From Candidatus Methanoperedens nitratireducens (GTDB taxonomy: Archaea; Halobacteriota; Methanosarcinia; Methanosarcinales; Methanoperedenaceae), in the NCBI RefSeq assembly GCF_000685155.1, contig NZ_JMIY01000003.1:105575-169574 (forward strand): a stretch of 64,000 bases of DNA. Direction: 5' to 3'. The position numbers were made by a program, and so were the translations under genes. The stretch's first letter is position 1; every line of letters begins with the position of its first letter. Below, piece by piece: positions 40,148 to 53,347 of the stretch. The notes under the pieces were generated by a model. The model had not been told where the DNA came from, ran no database searches, and was given only the letters and a program-made list of their open reading frames with translations.

Positions 40148-40684
40148 GTGGCAATGCAAGGTTTAGATGTGGTAAGGCAAAGTTTAATTGATAATCAGAT
40201 ACTTGAACTTATTAAACAGAGGCCAGATATCACTGATACTGAGATTGCATCGCAACTCGGTTTAAAGATAGACGAGGTAATCGACAGGATAGAAAGTTTA
40301 TCAGATACGCGGGTCAAAATATTGATTGTTGATGATGAGAAAGATGTAGTTGTCCCGCTTAAGATGTCCCTTGAAGCAGATAACTACAGTGTAATCGAAG
40401 CTTATGCTGGCTACGGGGCAATAGAAAAAGCACGCTCTGAGATTCCAGATTTAATCATATTAGATCTCATGCTTCCAGATATGGATGGCTATGAGGTATG
40501 TAACAGGCTGAGAGAAGATCCACTGACCGAATTGATCCCGATTATTATGCTGACAGGGAAGGACGATATAAGCAATAAAATAGAAGGTCTGGAGAGGGGA
40601 GCAGATGACTATATTACAAAGCCATTTAACCTCAGTGAGCTCAAGGCAAGGATTCGTACTGTCCTGAGGCGCTCCAGGGTTTAA
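40148..40684 (+). CDS. Response regulator with N-terminal helix-turn-helix
   Basis: A 178-residue protein. An Lrp-like helix-turn-helix (IKQRPDITDTEIASQLGL) occupies about the first 50 residues, followed by a complete receiver domain: acidic pair in IVDDEKDVV, phospho-Asp in IILDLMLPDMDGYE, Thr in IIMLTGKDD, Lys in YITKPFNL. The order is the reverse of the usual receiver-then-DNA-binding layout. It ends 13 bases before the hybrid kinase gene, its likely partner. Start GTG 40148 or ATG 40154. Confidence 0.85.
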   Translation: MAMQGLDVVRQSLIDNQILELIKQRPDITDTEIASQLGLKIDEVIDRIESLSDTRVKILIVDDEKDVVVPLKMSLEADNYSVIEAYAGYGAIEKARSEIPDLIILDLMLPDMDGYEVCNRLREDPLTELIPIIMLTGKDDISNKIEGLERGADDYITKPFNLSELKARIRTVLRRSRV

Positions 40685-40699
40685 TCAGGTGACATAGTG

Positions 40700-42712
40700 A
40701 TGGAAATAGCCAGGACATATGGAGAACTTCTGCTTGAAATCCAGAAACTTCGCTCCCGGCTTCTTGAGGCAGAAGAAACGTTGCACGCAATCGGAAGTGG
40801 CGAAGTAGATGCACTGGTGATCTCAGGTAACCAGGGAGAGCAGGTTTTTACGCTCAAAGGTGCTGATCAGACCTACCGTATCCTTATTGAGGAAATGAAG
40901 GAGGGAGCTGTTACGCTGGCAGCAGATGATACAGTACTCTATTGCAATCGTGGCTTTGCCAGGATGCTTGGAATGCCGCTTGAGAGAGTGATGGGTACAA
41001 GGATTCAGAAACTCATCCTGCCAGATGATCAGGCTATGTTCGATGAGATGCTTCGGCAGGGCCGGGCCGGGTGCAGCAGGGGAGAGAGCACTTTTCTGAC
41101 AGGGGATGGGGCACACGTGCCTGCATATCTCTCCATAAACACATTGCAGATGGATGAAGTATCGGCTCTCTATATAGTTGTTATGGATCTGACCGAGCGC
41201 AAGCGGGCTGAGGAACAGATACGAGAACAAGCTGCCCTTCTGGACAGAGCACATGATGCTATCGGAGCCCGGGATTTAGAACACAGAATCACATACTGGA
41301 ATAAAGGAGCAGAGCACCTGTATGGCTGGACAGCAGAAGAGGCTACAGGCAAAAAAGCTGATGAGCTTCTTTATACAGAAGAATCACCATATCTCACTGA
41401 AGCAAAGCAGGAAGTTATCAAGGAGGGTGAGTGGGCAGGTGAGCTGCAGCAGGTAACAAAAGATGGAAGGGAAATCACAGTAGAGAGCCGCTGGACCCTG
41501 GTACGCGATAGTGAAGGGAATCCAAAATCTATACTGGTCATCAATACTGATATCACTGAGAAAAAGAGGCTTGAGGTTCAGTTCCTTCGGGCTCAGCGAA
41601 TGGAAAGTATAGGCACGCTCGCGGGAGGTATAGCGCACGATCTCAATAATATGCTGACGCCAATAATGATGTCAGTGCAAATATTGCGGGAAAAATTCAA
41701 GGATGAAGAGAGCCAGAGGCTGCTTAATATACTTGAGAGAAGTACAATGCGCGGAGCTAATTTAATAAACCAGGTCCTATCATTTGCGCGAGGGATTGAA
41801 GGTGAACGAAAACCTATCCAGGTAGCATATATCATATCTGAAATTAAGAAGATCGCAGAGGAGACATTCCCAAGATCTATCTATGTTAGGGCTAATACAC
41901 CAAAAGACCTCTGGACCATATCTGGAGATGCAACACAACTGCATCAGGTCATGATGAACCTGTGCGTGAATGCCAGGGATGCAATGCCATCCGGCGGTAC
42001 CCTGAGCATCCGTGCTGAGAATATTCTCATTGATGAAAACTACGTTCGTATGAATATCGAGGCCAGAGTTGGCCCTTATGTAATGATTTCGGTCTCTGAT
42101 ACAGGAGTGGGCATTCCACCCGAGATAATGGGCAGGATCTTTGAGCCATTTTTCACTACAAAAGAGCACGGCAAAGGCACAGGTCTTGGTCTTTCGACAT
42201 CACTTACAGTCATCAGAAGTCACGGTGGATTCACAAATGTGTACAGTAAGGCTGGGAAAGGGACAACATTTGAATTCTATATACCTGCTGTTATAACAAA
42301 CGAAACGCAAAAAGCAGAGGATCAGCCTCTATCGCCCAGGGGGCAGGGGGAAGTAATTCTAGTTGTCGATGATGAGGCCCCAATCCGTGAGATTACCAGT
42401 GCCACACTGGAAACAAATGGGTACAGAGTGCTAACAGCCAGTAACGGGGCTGAAGCAGTAGTATTATACGCGCAAAAAAAAGATGATATAAAAGTCGTTC
42501 TTATGGATATGATGATGCCAGTTATGGAAGGCCCGGAGTGTATCCGAACGCTGCGTAAGGTTAATCCTGGTGTCAGGGTCATCGCTATCAGTGGATTAAC
42601 TGATAGGAATGATCTTGAGGTGTTCGCAGATAATGTATGTGCTTTTTTGCCAAAGCCTTACACTGCACAGAGATTGCTCCTGACCGTATATGAGGTCATA
42701 AGCGCAAAATAG
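40700..42712 (+). CDS. Hybrid sensor histidine kinase (PAS-PAS-HisKA-HATPase-receiver)
   Basis: A 670-residue soluble hybrid kinase. Two PAS domains (about 55-170 and 180-295), a phosphoacceptor helix with the histidine in LAGGIAHDLNNMLTPIM, an ATPase domain (NLCVNARDAMPSGG, SVSDTGVGIPPEI, GTGLGLSTSLTVI) and a C-terminal receiver (VVDDEAPIREI, VVLMDMMMPVMEGPEC, FLPKPYTAQRLL). No membrane segments. The HDLNN box and domain order are of bacterial hybrid-kinase type, suggesting ancient transfer. A shorter relative is encoded 1.1 kb downstream. ATG 40700 follows AGGTGA. Confidence 0.93.
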   Translation: MEIARTYGELLLEIQKLRSRLLEAEETLHAIGSGEVDALVISGNQGEQVFTLKGADQTYRILIEEMKEGAVTLAADDTVLYCNRGFARMLGMPLERVMGTRIQKLILPDDQAMFDEMLRQGRAGCSRGESTFLTGDGAHVPAYLSINTLQMDEVSALYIVVMDLTERKRAEEQIREQAALLDRAHDAIGARDLEHRITYWNKGAEHLYGWTAEEATGKKADELLYTEESPYLTEAKQEVIKEGEWAGELQQVTKDGREITVESRWTLVRDSEGNPKSILVINTDITEKKRLEVQFLRAQRMESIGTLAGGIAHDLNNMLTPIMMSVQILREKFKDEESQRLLNILERSTMRGANLINQVLSFARGIEGERKPIQVAYIISEIKKIAEETFPRSIYVRANTPKDLWTISGDATQLHQVMMNLCVNARDAMPSGGTLSIRAENILIDENYVRMNIEARVGPYVMISVSDTGVGIPPEIMGRIFEPFFTTKEHGKGTGLGLSTSLTVIRSHGGFTNVYSKAGKGTTFEFYIPAVITNETQKAEDQPLSPRGQGEVILVVDDEAPIREITSATLETNGYRVLTASNGAEAVVLYAQKKDDIKVVLMDMMMPVMEGPECIRTLRKVNPGVRVIAISGLTDRNDLEVFADNVCAFLPKPYTAQRLLLTVYEVISAK

Positions 42713-42718
42713 AGCGGT

Positions 42719-43516
42719 TCATATTTCGTATCTCTTTGCCTTTCCTCTGTAGTACTCAAATAATTCATAGCCCCAGCGAACTGACATATCATCAGTACCG
42801 ATCAGGTCATACGTTGTATCGTATACCCCGCTGGTTGTAAATAGCCCGAGTGAAATATGAGTATCGGTTACTGTAAGGGCAACTTTTAATTTTTCATCGG
42901 TGATCAATACCTCCAGGCGGTGGTTAGAGATTGCATTTTTAATATCTTCCAGGCCTATAATATTTTTCAGTTTATTAAATATATCCATATTTAATATAAG
43001 ACAGGTATCAATGCTATTCTCAACCAGCACTTTGAATATAACCGTATAGTCCGGGGAATACACAGGAGAGACTCTTTTGATCCACTTTGCTGTTTTAATA
43101 TAACCTGTATAAACATCACGCATTTTAATAATATCCAGTGGATCTATCTGTACCACATTTGAATCTTTCAACCATCCGATCTTTTCCATAAGATGCTCTG
43201 GAATCCCGCTCAGGTCGTGCCCGAGCCAGAATTTTTCGTGCTTTTTCAAAGCTTCTGCCGCATTGTTAAAATCTATTAGTTTCAGGGTTATAATCCTGCC
43301 AGTATTTGTAAGCATATAGTTTCTAAACCTATCCTGAAAAATAAGGTGGTTCCTCTCAAGCTCTCTTAATGCATGTATGATTGTTGAAGAGCTTGTTTTT
43401 AGATTATCTCTCAGATTGCCTGTAGATTTTTTTCCATCGATCAGGCTTATGAGTATATTTTTTCGCAAATTAGAGCAGATGGCCAGGTTGAGAACGTTTT
43501 TATTATCTGTGTTCAT
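42719..43516 (-). CDS. DUF1724-type archaeal transcriptional regulator
   Basis: A 265-residue regulator with an N-terminal winged helix (SNLRKNILISLIDGKKSTGN, SSSTIIHALRELERNHLIFQ) and a C-terminal DUF1724 domain (YTVIFKVLVENSIDTCLILN, ALTVTDTHISLGLFTTSGVYD). This architecture is characteristic of Methanosarcina Msr-type regulators, some of which control methyltransferase genes. It converges with the hybrid kinase gene, 6 bases between stops. Effector and targets are unknown. Confidence 0.85.
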   Translation of the reverse strand: MNTDNKNVLNLAICSNLRKNILISLIDGKKSTGNLRDNLKTSSSTIIHALRELERNHLIFQDRFRNYMLTNTGRIITLKLIDFNNAAEALKKHEKFWLGHDLSGIPEHLMEKIGWLKDSNVVQIDPLDIIKMRDVYTGYIKTAKWIKRVSPVYSPDYTVIFKVLVENSIDTCLILNMDIFNKLKNIIGLEDIKNAISNHRLEVLITDEKLKVALTVTDTHISLGLFTTSGVYDTTYDLIGTDDMSVRWGYELFEYYRGKAKRYEI

Positions 43517-43804
43517 CTATGTTACATCCCTTCTTTCTTGCCTATATGTCTCATTATAATTATAATAACTTTACATATATGGTTTCAAGCTCTTTATATT
43601 GCTAAATTCAGGCAACTTTGCTTATATATGGGAAAACTTGATATATCTTCAAATCTTAACACAGAGTAGTAGGTCGAGCACAATTATTGCCTGCCAGTAT
43701 GGAACAGGTGATGTTTTGTGCAGTATAAAGAGGGATTCAAGTCCGAACCTGCACTATGGCAGGGATTATAATTATGCAAACTGCTATTAAAAGAGGTGGA
43801 TAGA

Positions 43805-44881
43805 ATGAAAAACAGGAATACGGCTAGAGAACAACAAGCGGATAGATTAGCAGAGCCACACCAGAGAGCTGCTGAACTGGAGACATGCTATCGAAGTGTT
43901 GTTGAAAGCGCTCGGGATATTATTTTTACGATCTCCAGGGACAATATTGTTACATTCCTGAACCCGGCATTTGAGAGGATCACCGGCTGGCCGCGCATGC
44001 AGTGGCTTGACAAGAACTATGAGTCCCTCATTCATCCTGATGATCTGTCCTTTTTGATGGAGATGTATCAGTGCGTCCTGAATGGAGAACTACCTCCAGG
44101 CTTTGAATCGCGCATTCTTTCAAGATCAGGTGAATACGTAACTATGGAACTCTTAATAACACCGCAGCTTCACCATGGAGAAGTTATCGGAATCCTGAAC
44201 ATTGGCCGCAACATCACAGAGCGCAGGCAGGTTCTGGAGAAGACAATAGAGAGTGCAGGCACTGGAGGAACAGCACATGAACTCAACAATATACTGACGC
44301 CAATAATCCTATCTGTGCAAATATTAAAAGAGAAGTTCAAAGATGAAGAGAGCCAGAGACTGCTTGGTATACTTGAGAGAAACGCCAACCGAGGAGCAGA
44401 TCTGGTAAAACAGATTAGATCATTTGCACGTGGACGTGCAGATAAAGTCTATCTATCATCTATTGCAATAACAGAAATGCAAAAATCAGAAGGACATTTT
44501 GAGCCTCCTGAAGGTCGTGGAGAATCGATTCTCATTGTTGACGATGAGACACCGATCCGTGAGATTACCAGTGCTACACTGAAGACAAGCGGGTACAGAG
44601 TGCTAACAGCCAGTGACGGGGCAGAGGCCTCAACACTGTATGCACAGAACAGAGAAGATATCATGGTTGTTCTTATGGATATGGCGATGCCTGTTATGGA
44701 AGGCCCGGAATGCATCCGGATATTGCATAAGGTTAATCCTGCTGTTAAGATCATCGCAGTCAGTGGATCAACTGATACGAGTGAGCTTGAAGACATAGCA
44801 GACTATGTACATGCCTTTCTGCCAAAGCCTTACACTGCACAGAGATTGCTGCACACCATACATGAGGTCATAAACCGATAA
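43805..44881 (+). CDS. PAS-phosphoacceptor-receiver protein lacking the ATPase domain
   Basis: A 358-residue relative of the hybrid kinase upstream. It has one PAS domain (about 30-145), the phosphoacceptor helix with the histidine kept (GGTAHELNNILTPIILSVQ), then a direct join after IRSFARGR to a receiver (LIVDDETPIREITSATLKTS, VVLMDMAMPVMEGPEC, FLPKPYTAQRLL). The whole HATPase domain is missing. It cannot phosphorylate itself, but both His and Asp remain, so it may be a phosphorelay protein fed by another kinase. ATG 43805 follows GAGGTG. Confidence 0.85.
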   Translation: MKNRNTAREQQADRLAEPHQRAAELETCYRSVVESARDIIFTISRDNIVTFLNPAFERITGWPRMQWLDKNYESLIHPDDLSFLMEMYQCVLNGELPPGFESRILSRSGEYVTMELLITPQLHHGEVIGILNIGRNITERRQVLEKTIESAGTGGTAHELNNILTPIILSVQILKEKFKDEESQRLLGILERNANRGADLVKQIRSFARGRADKVYLSSIAITEMQKSEGHFEPPEGRGESILIVDDETPIREITSATLKTSGYRVLTASDGAEASTLYAQNREDIMVVLMDMAMPVMEGPECIRILHKVNPAVKIIAVSGSTDTSELEDIADYVHAFLPKPYTAQRLLHTIHEVINR

Positions 44882-48655: not shown

Positions 48656-49255
48656 CTAATCGCCTTCATCAGGTTCATCCTCACGGTAGCTTGTGTCACC
48701 GATCATGGCAGCACTGATTGAATCAATGCCATCAAGCCACTCAGCTACAAGCCCTTCAGGAACATCATCAAGAGCTTTTTCACTGATCTTCCCACCAGCA
48801 AGGATATTTGCACCGATCTCTGCTATATAACCAAGGGCAGCCCCCATATTATCCTCCTCTTCTGCCTTCACAGCGCTCTTTATCAGTTTATCAAGGGATT
48901 TCTTTTTCTCAAATGCCCCTTCTACATAGCATTCGCATGATGCAAAAACACCAATCAGTGATAACTGCACGGATTCTATCATCATGTCAATATCCTCGTT
49001 TATAGGATCAACCTTTTTTAGGACTATTTCCTTTACTTCGTTGAGGTATTTCAGTGCATCTTCACTGGAGAGCAGTTTATTATCATATTTTGCTATTATC
49101 TTCAGGCATGCCAGAACCACATCATCTTCCATATATACAAAAATCGCCCCTTTGTCCTGATCATCAAGCTTAAATCCGCTCTCTTTTACTTTATTTATCC
49201 AGTTCTGCCATCGTTCTTCAGTATAGAACGGGATTGTATACTTTGATTCCTGCAT
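48656..49255 (-). CDS. DUF2150 family protein
   Basis: A 199-residue acidic, mostly helical protein (FYTEERWQNWINKVKESGFK opening, DVVLACLKIIAKYDNKLL, GVFASCECYVEGAFEKKKSL) that fits DUF2150, a family confined to methanogens and relatives with no known function. It lies 13 bases after the response regulator gene and 6 before the methyltransferase gene, so it may belong to the signalling operon or link it to the downstream genes. Confidence 0.78.
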   Translation of the reverse strand: MQESKYTIPFYTEERWQNWINKVKESGFKLDDQDKGAIFVYMEDDVVLACLKIIAKYDNKLLSSEDALKYLNEVKEIVLKKVDPINEDIDMMIESVQLSLIGVFASCECYVEGAFEKKKSLDKLIKSAVKAEEEDNMGAALGYIAEIGANILAGGKISEKALDDVPEGLVAEWLDGIDSISAAMIGDTSYREDEPDEGD

Positions 49256-49268
49256 TGTCTCTCCATCT

Positions 49269-49685
49269 CTAATTTGTGTTTTGATTTTCGATCGTTTTAA
49301 ACTCTGTTAGACCTGTTAATTTTCTCACTCTGTCTATTAATTCGTTCTTACCAAATGGTTTTGTTATGTAGTCATCCGCCTTCAATACATGTAACCCAAG
49401 CAGTTTATCTATATTCTGTGTTTTCGCAGTTAGAATAGCAACAGGGATGTCTGGATATTTATCTTTGATTCTCCTGAAGATCTCCCATCCATCCATATCA
49501 GGCATCATGATATCAAGAAGCACAAGATCGGGCTTTGAAGCTTCGATCATAACCAGTGCTTCTGTTCCACTTGTAGCCAGTAATGCTTTAAAGCCTCCGT
49601 TCTCAAGAACTAACTTAACAAGCTCAAGCGTGTCAGGCTCGTCATCCACTATAAGCACTTCTTTGGCAGGTATATCCTTATCCAT
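49269..49685 (-). CDS. Single-domain response regulator
   Basis: A 138-residue receiver with all functional residues: acidic pair in VLIVDDEPDTLE, phospho-Asp in LVLLDIMMPDMDGWE, Thr in VAILTAKTQN and Lys in YITKPFGKNE. No output domain is attached. It overlaps the end of the upstream histidine kinase gene by 8 bases and is its likely partner. Confidence 0.92.
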   Translation of the reverse strand: MDKDIPAKEVLIVDDEPDTLELVKLVLENGGFKALLATSGTEALVMIEASKPDLVLLDIMMPDMDGWEIFRRIKDKYPDIPVAILTAKTQNIDKLLGLHVLKADDYITKPFGKNELIDRVRKLTGLTEFKTIENQNTN

Positions 49686-50784
49686 TGTATCCCCTTTTAG
49701 GTAATAAAATATGAAAGGTGCTTCCTATATTTTTACTTTCCGCCCAGATTTTGCCCGAATGGGCTTCCACTATGTTTTTTGAGATCCAGAGACCCAATCC
49801 TGTTCCTCCATGGTTTGGTACATATGCTGATATTGAATCAAGCTGATAGAATCTGTCAAAGATCATATCAAGCTTATCCCGAGGGATGCCGATACCTGTG
49901 TCGTCTATTCTTATATGTATCCATTTATCCTCTTCTTCTGCTGTTATCTTTATTCTTCCTTTTATTGTATATTTGATTGCGTTATCCACTATACTTGAGA
50001 ACACCTGTATCAACCTGTCCCTATCACCCTCAACTGCCAGATGCTGAGGAATATCGATATCTATGGGTATATCCTTGATTAATGCCATTGTTTTTATATC
50101 CTCTGGAACCTGGGTTATCAGGTCATAGATCGATAATGTCTGTATATCCAGTTGAAAGTCACTGGACTCGATGAGCGATGTATCGAGAAGTCCTCTTATT
50201 AATCTCGATAGGCGTTTTGAGTTTCTCAGGATTATCTCAAGCTTATGCTTCTGATCTGAGGTTATATCTTCCTCAAGCAAAAGCTCTGTAAATCCTATAA
50301 TGGATGTAAGTGGTGTTCTGAGTTCATGCGACATATTTGAGAGAAAACTATCTTTTATCTTATAAAGCTCTTTGAGCTTTGAATAGGTTAACCTGAGTTC
50401 CTCATAGGAATCTTTAAGTTCTTCTTCAAGCCTTCTCTGATCTGATACGTCTCTCATTACTGTAATGATCTTCTCAACGTTCCCGTTTTTATCCTTGATT
50501 GGAATCCTGGATGTACTGGTATAGATTATGTCCCCGTTGTACTCTGTTTTATCCTCACTCTGGATGGTCTCTCCTGTGTTAATGATATACTCATATTCTT
50601 TGTCGATATGTTTTTCCCTGAGTTGCGGAAATACCTCAAAAAGATCTCTGTTCAGCATATCCTCCTCTTTGAGCCTTCCCCTGTTAAGATTAAGTAATTC
50701 CTTATTAACAGCAAGTATTTTCATATCTCTATCCACTACATGGATTGCAAGATTGATATTGTTGAGTATCTCTTCTTCAAGCAT
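49678..50784 (-). CDS. PAS sensor histidine kinase
   Basis: A 368-residue kinase: one PAS domain (about 1-120), a coiled linker, the phosphoacceptor helix (FLSNMSHELRTPLTSIIGF) and an ATPase domain (IVDNAIKYT, DDTGIGIPRDK, GTGLGLWISKNIVEAHSG). No membrane segment. The frame stays open about 90 bases upstream without a normal start and reads SLRDITLQK, the usual end of another PAS domain, so an N-terminal PAS may have been lost. It follows two small membrane protein genes that could supply its membrane attachment. Confidence 0.9.
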   Translation of the reverse strand: MLEEEILNNINLAIHVVDRDMKILAVNKELLNLNRGRLKEEDMLNRDLFEVFPQLREKHIDKEYEYIINTGETIQSEDKTEYNGDIIYTSTSRIPIKDKNGNVEKIITVMRDVSDQRRLEEELKDSYEELRLTYSKLKELYKIKDSFLSNMSHELRTPLTSIIGFTELLLEEDITSDQKHKLEIILRNSKRLSRLIRGLLDTSLIESSDFQLDIQTLSIYDLITQVPEDIKTMALIKDIPIDIDIPQHLAVEGDRDRLIQVFSSIVDNAIKYTIKGRIKITAEEEDKWIHIRIDDTGIGIPRDKLDMIFDRFYQLDSISAYVPNHGGTGLGLWISKNIVEAHSGKIWAESKNIGSTFHILLPKRGYNG

Positions 50785-50876
50785 CTTTTGCAGCGTTATA
50801 TCTCTTAGACTAATATTATATTTGTCCCTTGTCCTGATCTGGTTCTTTTCCTCATTTCTCTGATAGGATCACATAA

Positions 50877-51173
50877 TCATTTATATTCTCTGATTAGCCA
50901 TCCCCAGTATTTTACTGTTGCAATAAGGCTGAGAGTAAGTCCTGCTGCAAATAGCGCATACCCCAGAAGATACGAATATTCAAACTCTGCCAGTGATAAT
51001 GCCCTTACAATGGAACCCGATAATACAAAGGAGATACCTGCATAATAAAGATAGTAATACCTCTTCATCCCCATAACTTCGCCCAATCGTCTGCTGAGAA
51101 TGCTTAGAATATAAAGAATCAATGCAAATAAAAGATATGATACTGAATCAAGCAATTCCATACCTGTGTTCAT
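50877..51173 (-). CDS. Small three-helix membrane protein, second of a pair
   Basis: A 98-residue protein with three hydrophobic helices (LLFALILYILSIL, YYLYYAGISFVLSGSIVR, LLGYALFAAGLTLSLIATV) and a conserved-looking RxxGEVMGMKRYYYLYY stretch. It overlaps the upstream small membrane protein gene by 4 bases (ATGA) and is similar in size and layout, so the two probably form a heteromeric membrane unit for the kinase encoded next. I recognise no family. Confidence 0.7.
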   Translation of the reverse strand: MNTGMELLDSVSYLLFALILYILSILSRRLGEVMGMKRYYYLYYAGISFVLSGSIVRALSLAEFEYSYLLGYALFAAGLTLSLIATVKYWGWLIREYK

Positions 51174-51454
51174 TTTTCACCTACCATTATTCTATACAGG
51201 TAATAACTTGCTGTAAAAGAAGCTACAGAGCCCAGAAATCCTATCAATTCAGAGAAAGATGTACGATAAGAGATTATATGTAATGCAGCAGCGAGAAGAA
51301 TGATTATAGGGATAGTATAGAAATAATAGAAGGTTCTTACACCGAATTTCTTCTGGTAGAATTCAGCTATTGAAGCTATAAAGATTACTATGAGAACAGC
51401 TACAATCCAGGCATATATTTCAATGATCCTCTGTATCAATATAGTGTCCCACAT
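51170..51454 (-). CDS. Small three-helix membrane protein, first of a pair
   Basis: A 94-residue protein: helices IVAVLIVIFIASIAEFY, TIPIIILLAAALHIIS and a third around GFLGSVASFTASYYLYRI, with a KKFGVRTFYYFYT loop that parallels the KRYYYLYY loop of its neighbour. It starts 5 bases after the KaiC-type gene and overlaps the next membrane gene. Likely the membrane part of the kinase-KaiC system. Confidence 0.7.
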   Translation of the reverse strand: MWDTILIQRIIEIYAWIVAVLIVIFIASIAEFYQKKFGVRTFYYFYTIPIIILLAAALHIISYRTSFSELIGFLGSVASFTASYYLYRIMVGEK

Positions 51455-51459
51455 ATTTA

Positions 51460-52902
51460 TTATTTTTTAAAAGCCTCTACGAAAGCCTCAGGGAGCGTCT
51501 TTACCGGGCTGCCTGATAATAATCCTGAATATTCGCTGAATGGTAGTTTTATTTCAACTCCCTCTTTATTGATAATAATTTCCCTTATCTCCTTGTCATG
51601 ATCGCTGCCTCTCATTTTAAGTACTGATATGGCTTTTCGCATCTCGCTTCTTATTTCCACGTATCTGAGTAATATTACAGTGTCCATAGTAGGGGAAATG
51701 CCTGTACCTGTAATCTGTGCTGTTCCTGTCAGGTTAGAAGCCTCGTTTGTATAGATGGCTGTAACATTTTTATTTTTCATATTGCTGATAATACCTGCCA
51801 TATACTCCGGGAACTGGATATATCCCGGCATCATCCGATAAAGCTTTCCTGTGCCATCAAACAGCATGCGTCTGGCATTTATTTTACCGATTATCTCATT
51901 AATCTGGATCGCAAGCTCGTTGGCATCAAACTCAAGAGGGGATATTATTTTGAGCAGATTCTTATCCTCATATCCTTTTAAATTCCAGCCGAACATTTTA
52001 TAATTCTCGCGTATCTGCATCGCATCCTCTTCAAATGAGACGATCACTCCAGGTTCGGCTCTTAATAGGCCGTTCATAATAAACTGTGTTCCGATTGTTG
52101 TTTTACCGGTTCCGCTTGAGCCTGAGATCAATATTGATGAGCCTCGAATGAAGCCTCCACCTGTCATCTGGTCAAATCCTTTTACTCCGGTGGATATACG
52201 CTCTTTTAAGATAGATGTCCTGTCTGTCAGAGGCAATCGCGGAAATATCGTGAATCCGTCTTTTGTAATTTTACATGAATGTTTTCCACTACAGAAATCC
52301 TGTCCCCTCATTTTGAGAATACTAACATGGCGTACGCTTCTCTCTAAAAAAGGCTCGTTGCTGATATAGATAATACCATCAACAAGATAACTAAGAGTGC
52401 TTTTAATAAGTGTGTCAGAAGTAAACTCACCTGTTAATAGAACAAGGGAATTCCATCCCTTCATAGCTGTAAAGAAATCATAGTAGAACTGACGCTGGGA
52501 TTCCTCATCCAGCCCAAAAACAAGCACATTTGCAGGATCAATGACGATCCGATCAGGCTTGACCAGCTCTATGTTCCTCTCCATCTCATTTATAACAGCT
52601 TTTGAGCCTTTGCGGATTATATTGATATCAATAGGCACATACTTGACATTACCTTTTCCAAGTAATGAAATATTATAAAAAGAGAACTTGGACATGAAAT
52701 TATTGATCATGGCTATAGGCTCAGAGAGCGCGGTGATATACATGCAAACCTCTTCATTCTTTGCTGCGTTAAAGAGAGATTGCATAACGAAAGTTGTTTT
52801 TCCAGTTCCCGCTGTGCCTGCTATCAATACTGCTGATGGTCTGAGAAAACCTCCGTCCAGCACATTATCAAGACCATTTACCCCTGTAGCAACCTGTTTC
52901 AT
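51460..52902 (-). CDS. Double KaiC-type RecA-fold ATPase
   Basis: A 480-residue protein with two KaiC domains. Domain 1 (about 1-225): GVNGLDNVLDGGFLRPSAVL, Walker A GTAGTGKTT, Walker B RIVIDPANVLVFG. Domain 2 (about 230-465): GVKGFDQMTGGGFIRGSSIL, Walker A GSSGTGKTT, Walker B ARRMLFDGTGK. Proteins of this group are RecA-fold ATPases used in archaeal signalling rather than circadian clocks. It lies between a roadblock gene (4 bases) and two membrane protein genes in the operon that ends with a kinase and receiver. Confidence 0.88.
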   Translation of the reverse strand: MKQVATGVNGLDNVLDGGFLRPSAVLIAGTAGTGKTTFVMQSLFNAAKNEEVCMYITALSEPIAMINNFMSKFSFYNISLLGKGNVKYVPIDINIIRKGSKAVINEMERNIELVKPDRIVIDPANVLVFGLDEESQRQFYYDFFTAMKGWNSLVLLTGEFTSDTLIKSTLSYLVDGIIYISNEPFLERSVRHVSILKMRGQDFCSGKHSCKITKDGFTIFPRLPLTDRTSILKERISTGVKGFDQMTGGGFIRGSSILISGSSGTGKTTIGTQFIMNGLLRAEPGVIVSFEEDAMQIRENYKMFGWNLKGYEDKNLLKIISPLEFDANELAIQINEIIGKINARRMLFDGTGKLYRMMPGYIQFPEYMAGIISNMKNKNVTAIYTNEASNLTGTAQITGTGISPTMDTVILLRYVEIRSEMRKAISVLKMRGSDHDKEIREIIINKEGVEIKLPFSEYSGLLSGSPVKTLPEAFVEAFKK

Positions 52903-52906
52903 ATTA

Positions 52907-53272
52907 TTACTCCAAAATCTCTTTTATCTTCTGGGATGCTTTGGCTACTTCAACCAGGATTAATCCAAGGCCTGCATTCGGTCTGGCCATAACCAGAAGC
53001 AATGCCTTTGATCCCGCTCCGGTTGCGATTAATTTTCCGTTTTTTGATTCCACTATAATCCTGTCTGGAACGCCTTTTCCAAGCTCTGCGGTTGCGGTTT
53101 CTGCCGCTCCCAGCATCGTAGCCGACATTGCTGCAAACGTCTCTGCCTGGAGTTTTCGGGATACATTTGAGCATATAAGTAAACCATCCCTGCTTGCCAC
53201 AGCCGAGGCTTCAATACCTCCGATATGTTTTAGGTCGTCCAGAATCTCCTCAAGCATCTCTATTGTCGTCAT
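52907..53272 (-). CDS. Roadblock/LC7-domain protein
   Basis: A 121-residue protein with the roadblock/LC7 fold: GIEASAVASRDGLLICSN, ETFAAMSATMLGAAETATAE, a central IIVESKNGKLIATGAG strand pair and a final helix. Roadblock proteins such as MglB act as partners or activators of Ras-like GTPases and NTPases. No GTPase is encoded nearby; the KaiC-type ATPase just downstream is the obvious partner. First gene of the signalling operon. Confidence 0.88.
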   Translation of the reverse strand: MTTIEMLEEILDDLKHIGGIEASAVASRDGLLICSNVSRKLQAETFAAMSATMLGAAETATAELGKGVPDRIIVESKNGKLIATGAGSKALLLVMARPNAGLGLILVEVAKASQKIKEILE

Positions 53273-53329: not shown

Positions 53330-53347
53330 CTAAGACATTTGTCTTAG
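53330..53347. promoter_or_regulatory. Palindrome upstream of the roadblock-KaiC operon
   Basis: CTAAGACA-TT-TGTCTTAG is a perfect 8-bp palindrome about 58 bases before the roadblock start. A TATA-like GTTTATAATG lies between the two on the minus strand, so the palindrome is upstream of the promoter, where an activator would bind. Confidence 0.5.

Follow-up and report, generated by a model that had tools for sequence, protein, structure and literature searches.

Roadblock proteins are usually discussed together with GTPases, and the KaiC-family ATPases of archaea are, to our knowledge, numerous and mostly without known partners. These ATPases were reportedly proposed as signaling hubs in archaea by Makarova, Galperin, and Koonin in 2017 (mBio 8:e01959-17). 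Fusions of KaiC with a receiver (REC) domain have been reported in Methanosarcinaceae (PMC5847659). Here, we analyzed a 64,000-nucleotide stretch of Candidatus Methanoperedens nitratireducens (positions 105,575 to 169,574 of NZ_JMIY01000003.1; “the window”), which lies on contig C3 of a 3.2-Mb archaeal genome (G000), and within it a minus-strand operon (49269 to 53272) whose six genes encode a roadblock protein (ROBL), a double-domain KaiC, two small membrane proteins (TM1 and TM2), a histidine kinase (HK), and a stand-alone receiver. A first-pass annotation had read this set as a membrane-associated relay in which roadblock and KaiC set the state of the kinase. We find that the deepest core of the system is KaiC-TM1-TM2 together with one receiver family, not roadblock-KaiC-kinase, and that the operon is a variant of the proposed archaeal KaiC signaling hubs. 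No description of this gene combination was found in the literature searched, which did not include the 2017 survey of archaeal KaiC hubs.

Like those hubs, and comparable to the KaiC-REC fusions, the operon links a KaiC-family ATPase to two-component parts. Its nearest functional counterpart is the actinobacterial conservon, an operon of a histidine kinase (CvnA), a roadblock protein (CvnB), CvnC, and a GTPase (CvnD) that is reported to form a membrane-associated complex and in some cases to have a kinase without a sensor (PMC13343842, PMC4316618). Roadblock, histidine kinase, and an NTPase likewise share one operon here, but the NTPase is KaiC instead of a Ras-like GTPase, and two membrane proteins and a receiver are added; because neither a Ras-like GTPase (CvnD) nor CvnC was found among the operon proteins, the operon is not a conservon member. 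With the cyanobacterial KaiABC-SasA-RpaA clock it shares a double-domain KaiC with an A-loop region and a Ser aligned with one of the phosphosite pair, as well as a HisKA kinase and a receiver nearby; unlike the clock, it has no KaiA, KaiB, or KaiB-like kinase domain, the Glu pair of the first KaiC domain is lost, and the phosphosite Thr is replaced by Pro. Pfam detected neither KaiA nor KaiB in the operon, and the genome-wide search, which covered KaiB and not KaiA, found four KaiB homologues, none near the operon and three on contig C5, one of them beside another KaiC. Against the circadian KaiC model TIGR02655 (an equivalog), the window KaiC scores 233 bits, below the cut-off of 546. The MglA-MglB polarity switch likewise pairs a roadblock with a neighboring NTPase and has links to receiver proteins, but the operon has no MglA, its nearest NTPase being KaiC. 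ArlH of the archaellum motor is also a KaiC-fold ATPase acting at a membrane complex, but it is single-domain and has other membrane partners, and the window KaiC reaches 57 bits against the ArlH cut-off of 215.

A TM2 profile gave 13 strong matches in 393 genomes of the phylum, 12 of them adjoining KaiC; the exception, in genome G003, is a TM1-TM2 pair standing alone. A second operon of G000, on contig C4, has the order KaiC-TM1-TM2-receiver and no roadblock, and in a distant family (f14) a single-domain KaiC is followed by TM1-TM2 in three genomes, with a receiver directly next in two of the three and ABC-transporter-like genes immediately upstream. The window receiver is 61% identical to that of the C4 operon (L233, 2724 to 3089), which directly follows TM2 and is its only close paralogue in the genome (next best, 41%), and f14 receivers are 62 to 67% identical to it. 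These identities tie the receiver subfamily more closely to the KaiC-TM pair than they tie the kinase. Roadblock and kinase, both parts of the relay read at first pass, thus do not form the core, since KaiC-TM1-TM2-receiver occurs without a roadblock and, in places, without an adjoining kinase.

The same loci bear on whether the operon is co-transcribed but functionally mixed, with a two-component system and a KaiC-membrane module sharing a promoter and making no direct contact. The halves do come apart: in genome G129 the kinase and receiver are separated from the KaiC-TM genes; in G003 the receiver, KaiC, and TM pair are all in separate places; and in six loci no kinase or receiver follows TM2. 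We nevertheless consider a mixed operon very unlikely, as the same receiver subfamily stands after TM2 in both the C4 operon and f14, which would not be expected from co-transcription alone. The reading that we tentatively prefer, while rating it somewhat short of an even chance, is a membrane-anchored KaiC switch under two-component control, in which the roadblock would act as a regulator of the NTPase.

To follow the gene order, a public genome collection was scanned with a roadblock alignment, and 80 named roadblock loci were kept. A double KaiC directly follows the roadblock gene in 33 of the 80 (Methanoperedens, ANME-2, and Methanosarcinaceae metagenome-assembled genomes [MAGs]), and TM1-TM2 comes next in all 31 in which the contig continues, contigs L113 and L117 stopping after KaiC. 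In L114, counted among the 31, TM1 had been dropped by the open reading frame (ORF) filter and was read instead in a copy of the locus (L055, 9389 to 9670). The full ROBL-KaiC-TM1-TM2-HK-REC order is present in 24/80 loci; six others, all Methanosarcinaceae, have ROBL-KaiC-TM1-TM2 without kinase or receiver, and one further contig ends after TM2. Two Methanosarcinaceae loci (L058 and L162) encode a PIN-domain protein and a GfcR-like protein where the kinase and receiver would stand. A search of 150 genomes from the class yielded KaiC orthologues (55 to 76% identical) in 12 relatives, with TM1 adjoining them. The grouping is not due to chance: the six-gene order that the first-pass annotation proposed to check in other archaea is kept, and the genes travel as a conserved unit rather than being scattered without co-occurrence. 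Separately, a named Methanoperedens MAG (L112) carries a roadblock orthologue without an adjoining double KaiC, other genes following instead.

Within the window, all six ORFs are present and intact as read directly from the sequence, and the tight one-strand spacing described at first pass holds (in the 5′-to-3′ direction, ROBL-KaiC 4 bp, KaiC-TM1 5 bp, TM1-TM2 4-bp overlap, TM2-kinase 92 bp, and kinase-receiver 8-bp overlap). Among named relatives, the closest roadblock (94% identical) comes from L110, a Candidatus Methanoperedens nitroreducens MAG, and the ratio of nonsynonymous to synonymous substitution rates (dN/dS) against this locus is 0.12 to 0.28 for five of the six genes, indicating clear purifying selection. 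The TM1 value of 0.87 is uncertain, the gene being short with few synonymous changes.

Table 1. Features of the operon and its immediate surroundings, in window coordinates
Feature	Position	Strand	Basis or remark
Roadblock/LC7 protein (ROBL), 121 amino acids (aa)	52907..53272	-	Pfam PF03259 (Robl_LC7), E 3.8e-15, 55.8 bits vs cut-off 23
Double-domain KaiC-family ATPase, 480 aa	51460..52902	-	PF06745 twice, E 1.2e-84; kept in all orthologous operons
Catalytic Glu pair of second KaiC domain (SFEED, residues 291-292)	52027..52032	-	Alignment to solved KaiCs
Ser403, aligned with Ser of the presumed KaiC Ser-Thr phosphosite pair; following Thr is Pro here	51694..51696	-	Alignment to solved KaiCs
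C-terminal tail of KaiC (EAFVEAFKK), a type seen where TM1-TM2 are neighbors	51463..51489	-	Comparison of KaiC ends
TM1 membrane protein, 94 aa, three predicted helices, conserved FYQKKF loop	51170..51454	-	AlphaFold2 mean pLDDT (predicted local distance difference test) 87
TM2 membrane protein, 98 aa, three predicted helices, conserved LSxRxGE loop, YWxWL..E C terminus	50877..51173	-	AlphaFold2 mean pLDDT 85
Gap at the place of the PhnD-type binding protein and the kinase's membrane sensor-HAMP part present in most relatives	50785..50876	-	Locus comparison, tblastn
PAS-HisKA-HATPase histidine kinase, 368 aa, without membrane segment, H-box His153	49678..50784	-	Pfam, hydropathy
Stand-alone receiver, 138 aa, phospho-Asp58	49269..49685	-	PF00072, E 5.8e-30
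DUF2150 protein	48656..49255	-	13 bp downstream of receiver; kept neighbor in Methanoperedens, not seen in other lineages

The window KaiC has the two domains and two Walker A motifs (residues 29-36 and 261-268) of its family, and its best match in PDB is KaiC 8zn5 (E 8.8e-78). Across orthologues, the first domain keeps its Walker A and has TALSEP or a similar sequence in place of the Glu pair, the absence of which suggests that this domain may be mainly a nucleotide-binding platform. The second may autophosphorylate, since it retains the catalytic Glu pair and one Ser (Ser403) at what we take to be the position of the Ser-Thr phosphosite pair of KaiC. At the C terminus, all examined KaiCs that adjoin TM1-TM2, the single-domain KaiC of f14 included, have an A-loop-like segment plus a short tail containing two conserved Phe, and the tail is absent from KaiCs without TM genes nearby, apart from L061 and L068. 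As the compared KaiCs are related, they cannot be counted as independent events in this correlation. The A-loops and C terminus of cyanobacterial and Rhodobacter KaiC govern phosphorylation (PMC11372060); because of this control in known KaiCs and because the tail tracks the TM genes, the tail is the best candidate for a docking site.

TM1 is homologous to TM2 (hhalign 91%, E 1.1e-6), and neither matches an accepted family in Pfam or NCBIfam. Fold searches of both against PDB returned nothing below E 0.5, and sequence searches against solved structures returned nothing of weight. By a simple hydropathy scan, TM1 and TM2 have two strong segments apiece, and the kinase has none. The conserved basic loops of the pair are predicted to face the cytoplasm.

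The kinase and receiver have complete two-component motifs, with the H-box (H153), N, and G boxes of the kinase and the Asp (D58), acid pair, Thr, and Lys of the receiver all in place. Pfam finds no KaiB-like docking domain in the window kinase and no DNA-binding output domain in the receiver. The kinase is short: its orthologues have 743 to 905 aa, except in L110 (374 aa) and L132 (320 aa), and those scanned carry HAMP and PAS domains and, in some, a Cache domain. Of the 24 kinase-bearing loci, 14 have a gene for a PhnD-type substrate-binding protein between those for TM2 and kinase, and L132 retains an 80-aa piece of it. In G129, ~40 kb separates the KaiC-TM genes from a group made up of the receiver, a 620-aa kinase, and a binding protein of the same kind (45% identical). 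In the window, tblastn matched the long kinase in its C-terminal part only, up to ~50805, and did not find the binding protein at the locus; this lineage has lost both the binding protein and the membrane sensor of the kinase. The membrane link of the relay proposed at first pass would therefore run through TM1-TM2, the pair of three-helix membrane proteins, and not through the kinase.

Because the kinase lacks a membrane sensor of its own, another input becomes plausible, and this input could be KaiC. Such a clock-like output, close to the first-pass view, would have KaiC (with the roadblock) sense metabolic or nucleotide state and signal through the histidine kinase to the receiver, in the manner of KaiC-SasA-RpaA in cyanobacteria. 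The presence of KaiC, a HisKA kinase, and a receiver in one operon and the retention of the Glu pair and phosphosite Ser in the second KaiC domain are consistent with this route, as are the accessory regulators that Streptomyces conservons carry where the kinase lacks a sensor domain (PMC13343842). We judge it distinctly unlikely, however, given that the kinase has no KaiB-like docking domain, that the receiver has no DNA-binding output domain, that the module is found with a receiver and no adjoining kinase, and that most orthologous kinases have their own membrane sensor, many with a binding protein. Control of KaiC by the kinase and receiver is likelier than the reverse, in which roadblock and KaiC set the state of the kinase, because it is the receiver, more than the kinase, that goes with KaiC-TM1-TM2, and because the kinase has no docking domain of the KaiB type.

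ROBL is 65 to 78% identical to the roadblock proteins of orthologous operons, and its nearest solved sequences are roadblock proteins, CvnB5 included. The genome encodes four roadblock genes. One paralogue, on contig C2 (~113.4 to 115.7 kb; L103, 6441 to 8681), directly follows a KaiC-like gene and a fusion of a KaiC domain with a Ras/Arf-like GTPase. This arrangement, K233-K389-ROBL (K389 being the KaiC-domain/Ras-like-GTPase fusion), occurs in 30/80 named loci, Archaeoglobaceae included, and recurs in a wider roadblock search; the KaiC-like part of K389 has no normal Walker A in the sequences read. Two separate loci of this genome thus link a roadblock to KaiC-family ATPases. A KaiC partner also agrees with the published description of roadblock proteins as predicted NTPase regulators generally (PMC4316618). 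Searches for Ras-family proteins in the genome matched only the fusion and one 1110-aa ORF, with no Ras or Arf match near the operon. As stated at first pass, the nearest NTPase in the operon is KaiC; it is not a GTPase, but elsewhere in the genome a ROBL paralogue adjoins the GTPase fusion. The ROBL tree does not separate the order of origin of the KaiC-TM and GTPase-fusion types.

These loci raise an alternative partner for the roadblock of the operon, which could work with the Ras-like GTPase domain of the K389 fusion elsewhere in the genome, its place in the operon reflecting co-regulation and not contact with the double KaiC. A ROBL paralogue does stand directly beside the fusion in this genome and in the 30 loci, and the genome gave a single Ras-family match besides the fusion. 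This explanation seems to us improbable, because K389 systems have a roadblock of their own and because ROBL keeps its place beside the double KaiC in three lineages, under purifying selection. Two further roadblock loci in the genome were noted. Within a 20-kb stretch of contig C5 (101500 to 121000; L104), a roadblock gene occurs together with KaiB homologues, a KaiC of 569 aa, and several kinases and receivers, a separate KaiB-KaiC signaling cluster. On contig C3 (L105, 7713 to 9331), a 412-aa gene that by eye resembles a proteasome-activating nucleotidase is 11 bp away from a more distant roadblock gene.

In the membrane-anchored switch that we favor, the histidine kinase would phosphorylate the stand-alone receiver, which would then act on the KaiC ring, while the TM1-TM2 pair would hold the ring at the membrane, probably via the KaiC C-terminal tail and A-loop region. 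The roadblock would be an added regulator of the KaiC NTPase, which would replace its usual GTPase partners. In most Methanoperedens relatives, the signal would probably be an extracellular ligand read by the PhnD-type binding protein and transmembrane kinase; in the window lineage, with both sensors lost, the soluble PAS domain may be the sensor. The proposed path from kinase to receiver to membrane-held KaiC is drawn from the gene linkage, the tie of the receiver to KaiC-TM1-TM2, and the published KaiC-REC fusions in Methanosarcinaceae. Also in favor of this reading is G129, in which the operon is split and a receiver of the same type still adjoins a PhnD-type binding protein and a kinase.

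Several points weigh against this proposal. All of the contacts in it, together with the direction and output of signaling, are predicted from gene linkage and sequence, and the receiver could signal to something else. Tail and TM genes are not strictly tied, because L061 (in G003, where TM1-TM2 lies elsewhere in the genome) and L068 (in G140) are tail-bearing KaiCs without adjacent TM genes; the small ORFs neighboring L068 gave no match to the TM profiles. The roadblock, moreover, is not essential to the core, since it is missing from many versions of the module. A bolder version, which we regard as rather unlikely, is that TM1-TM2 are undescribed membrane subunits docking the tail of the KaiC ring, forming a receiver-controlled membrane switch, that roadblocks serve KaiC ATPases as they do GTPases, and that the KaiC/Ras-like-GTPase fusion is an evolutionary bridge. 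The module nonetheless names a receiver subfamily, a two-gene membrane family without a curated model, and a KaiC tail tracking them, making the partners of an archaeal KaiC directly testable, and it ties roadblock proteins, whose usual partners are GTPases, to KaiC-family ATPases at two loci of one genome.

Near archaellum genes, we observed the receiver and a REC-fusion protein in G129 (L243, 8378 to 17418; arlF, arlG, arlH, and arlI) and in G003 (L244, 738 to 9997; arlH); this link is a lead only, because the two genomes belong to one family and other genes intervene. A 371-aa protein beside the G129 receiver was considered as a KaiC-REC fusion and rejected, as Pfam finds only a receiver in it and hhalign against the KaiC alignment gives 0.4%.

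The operon is flanked by a leucyl-tRNA synthetase gene upstream and by DUF2150, methyltransferase, and FtsJ genes downstream, a setting common to Methanoperedens genomes and not to other lineages; the DUF2150 gene is probably outside the module. Upstream of the roadblock gene lies a perfect 8-bp inverted repeat, CTAAGACA-TT-TGTCTTAG (53330 to 53347), that was not found upstream of the roadblock gene in the relatives checked. Elsewhere in the window (40148 to 44881, plus strand), other two-component genes encode a receiver protein, a PAS kinase-receiver hybrid, and a PAS-receiver protein, with domains assigned by eye.

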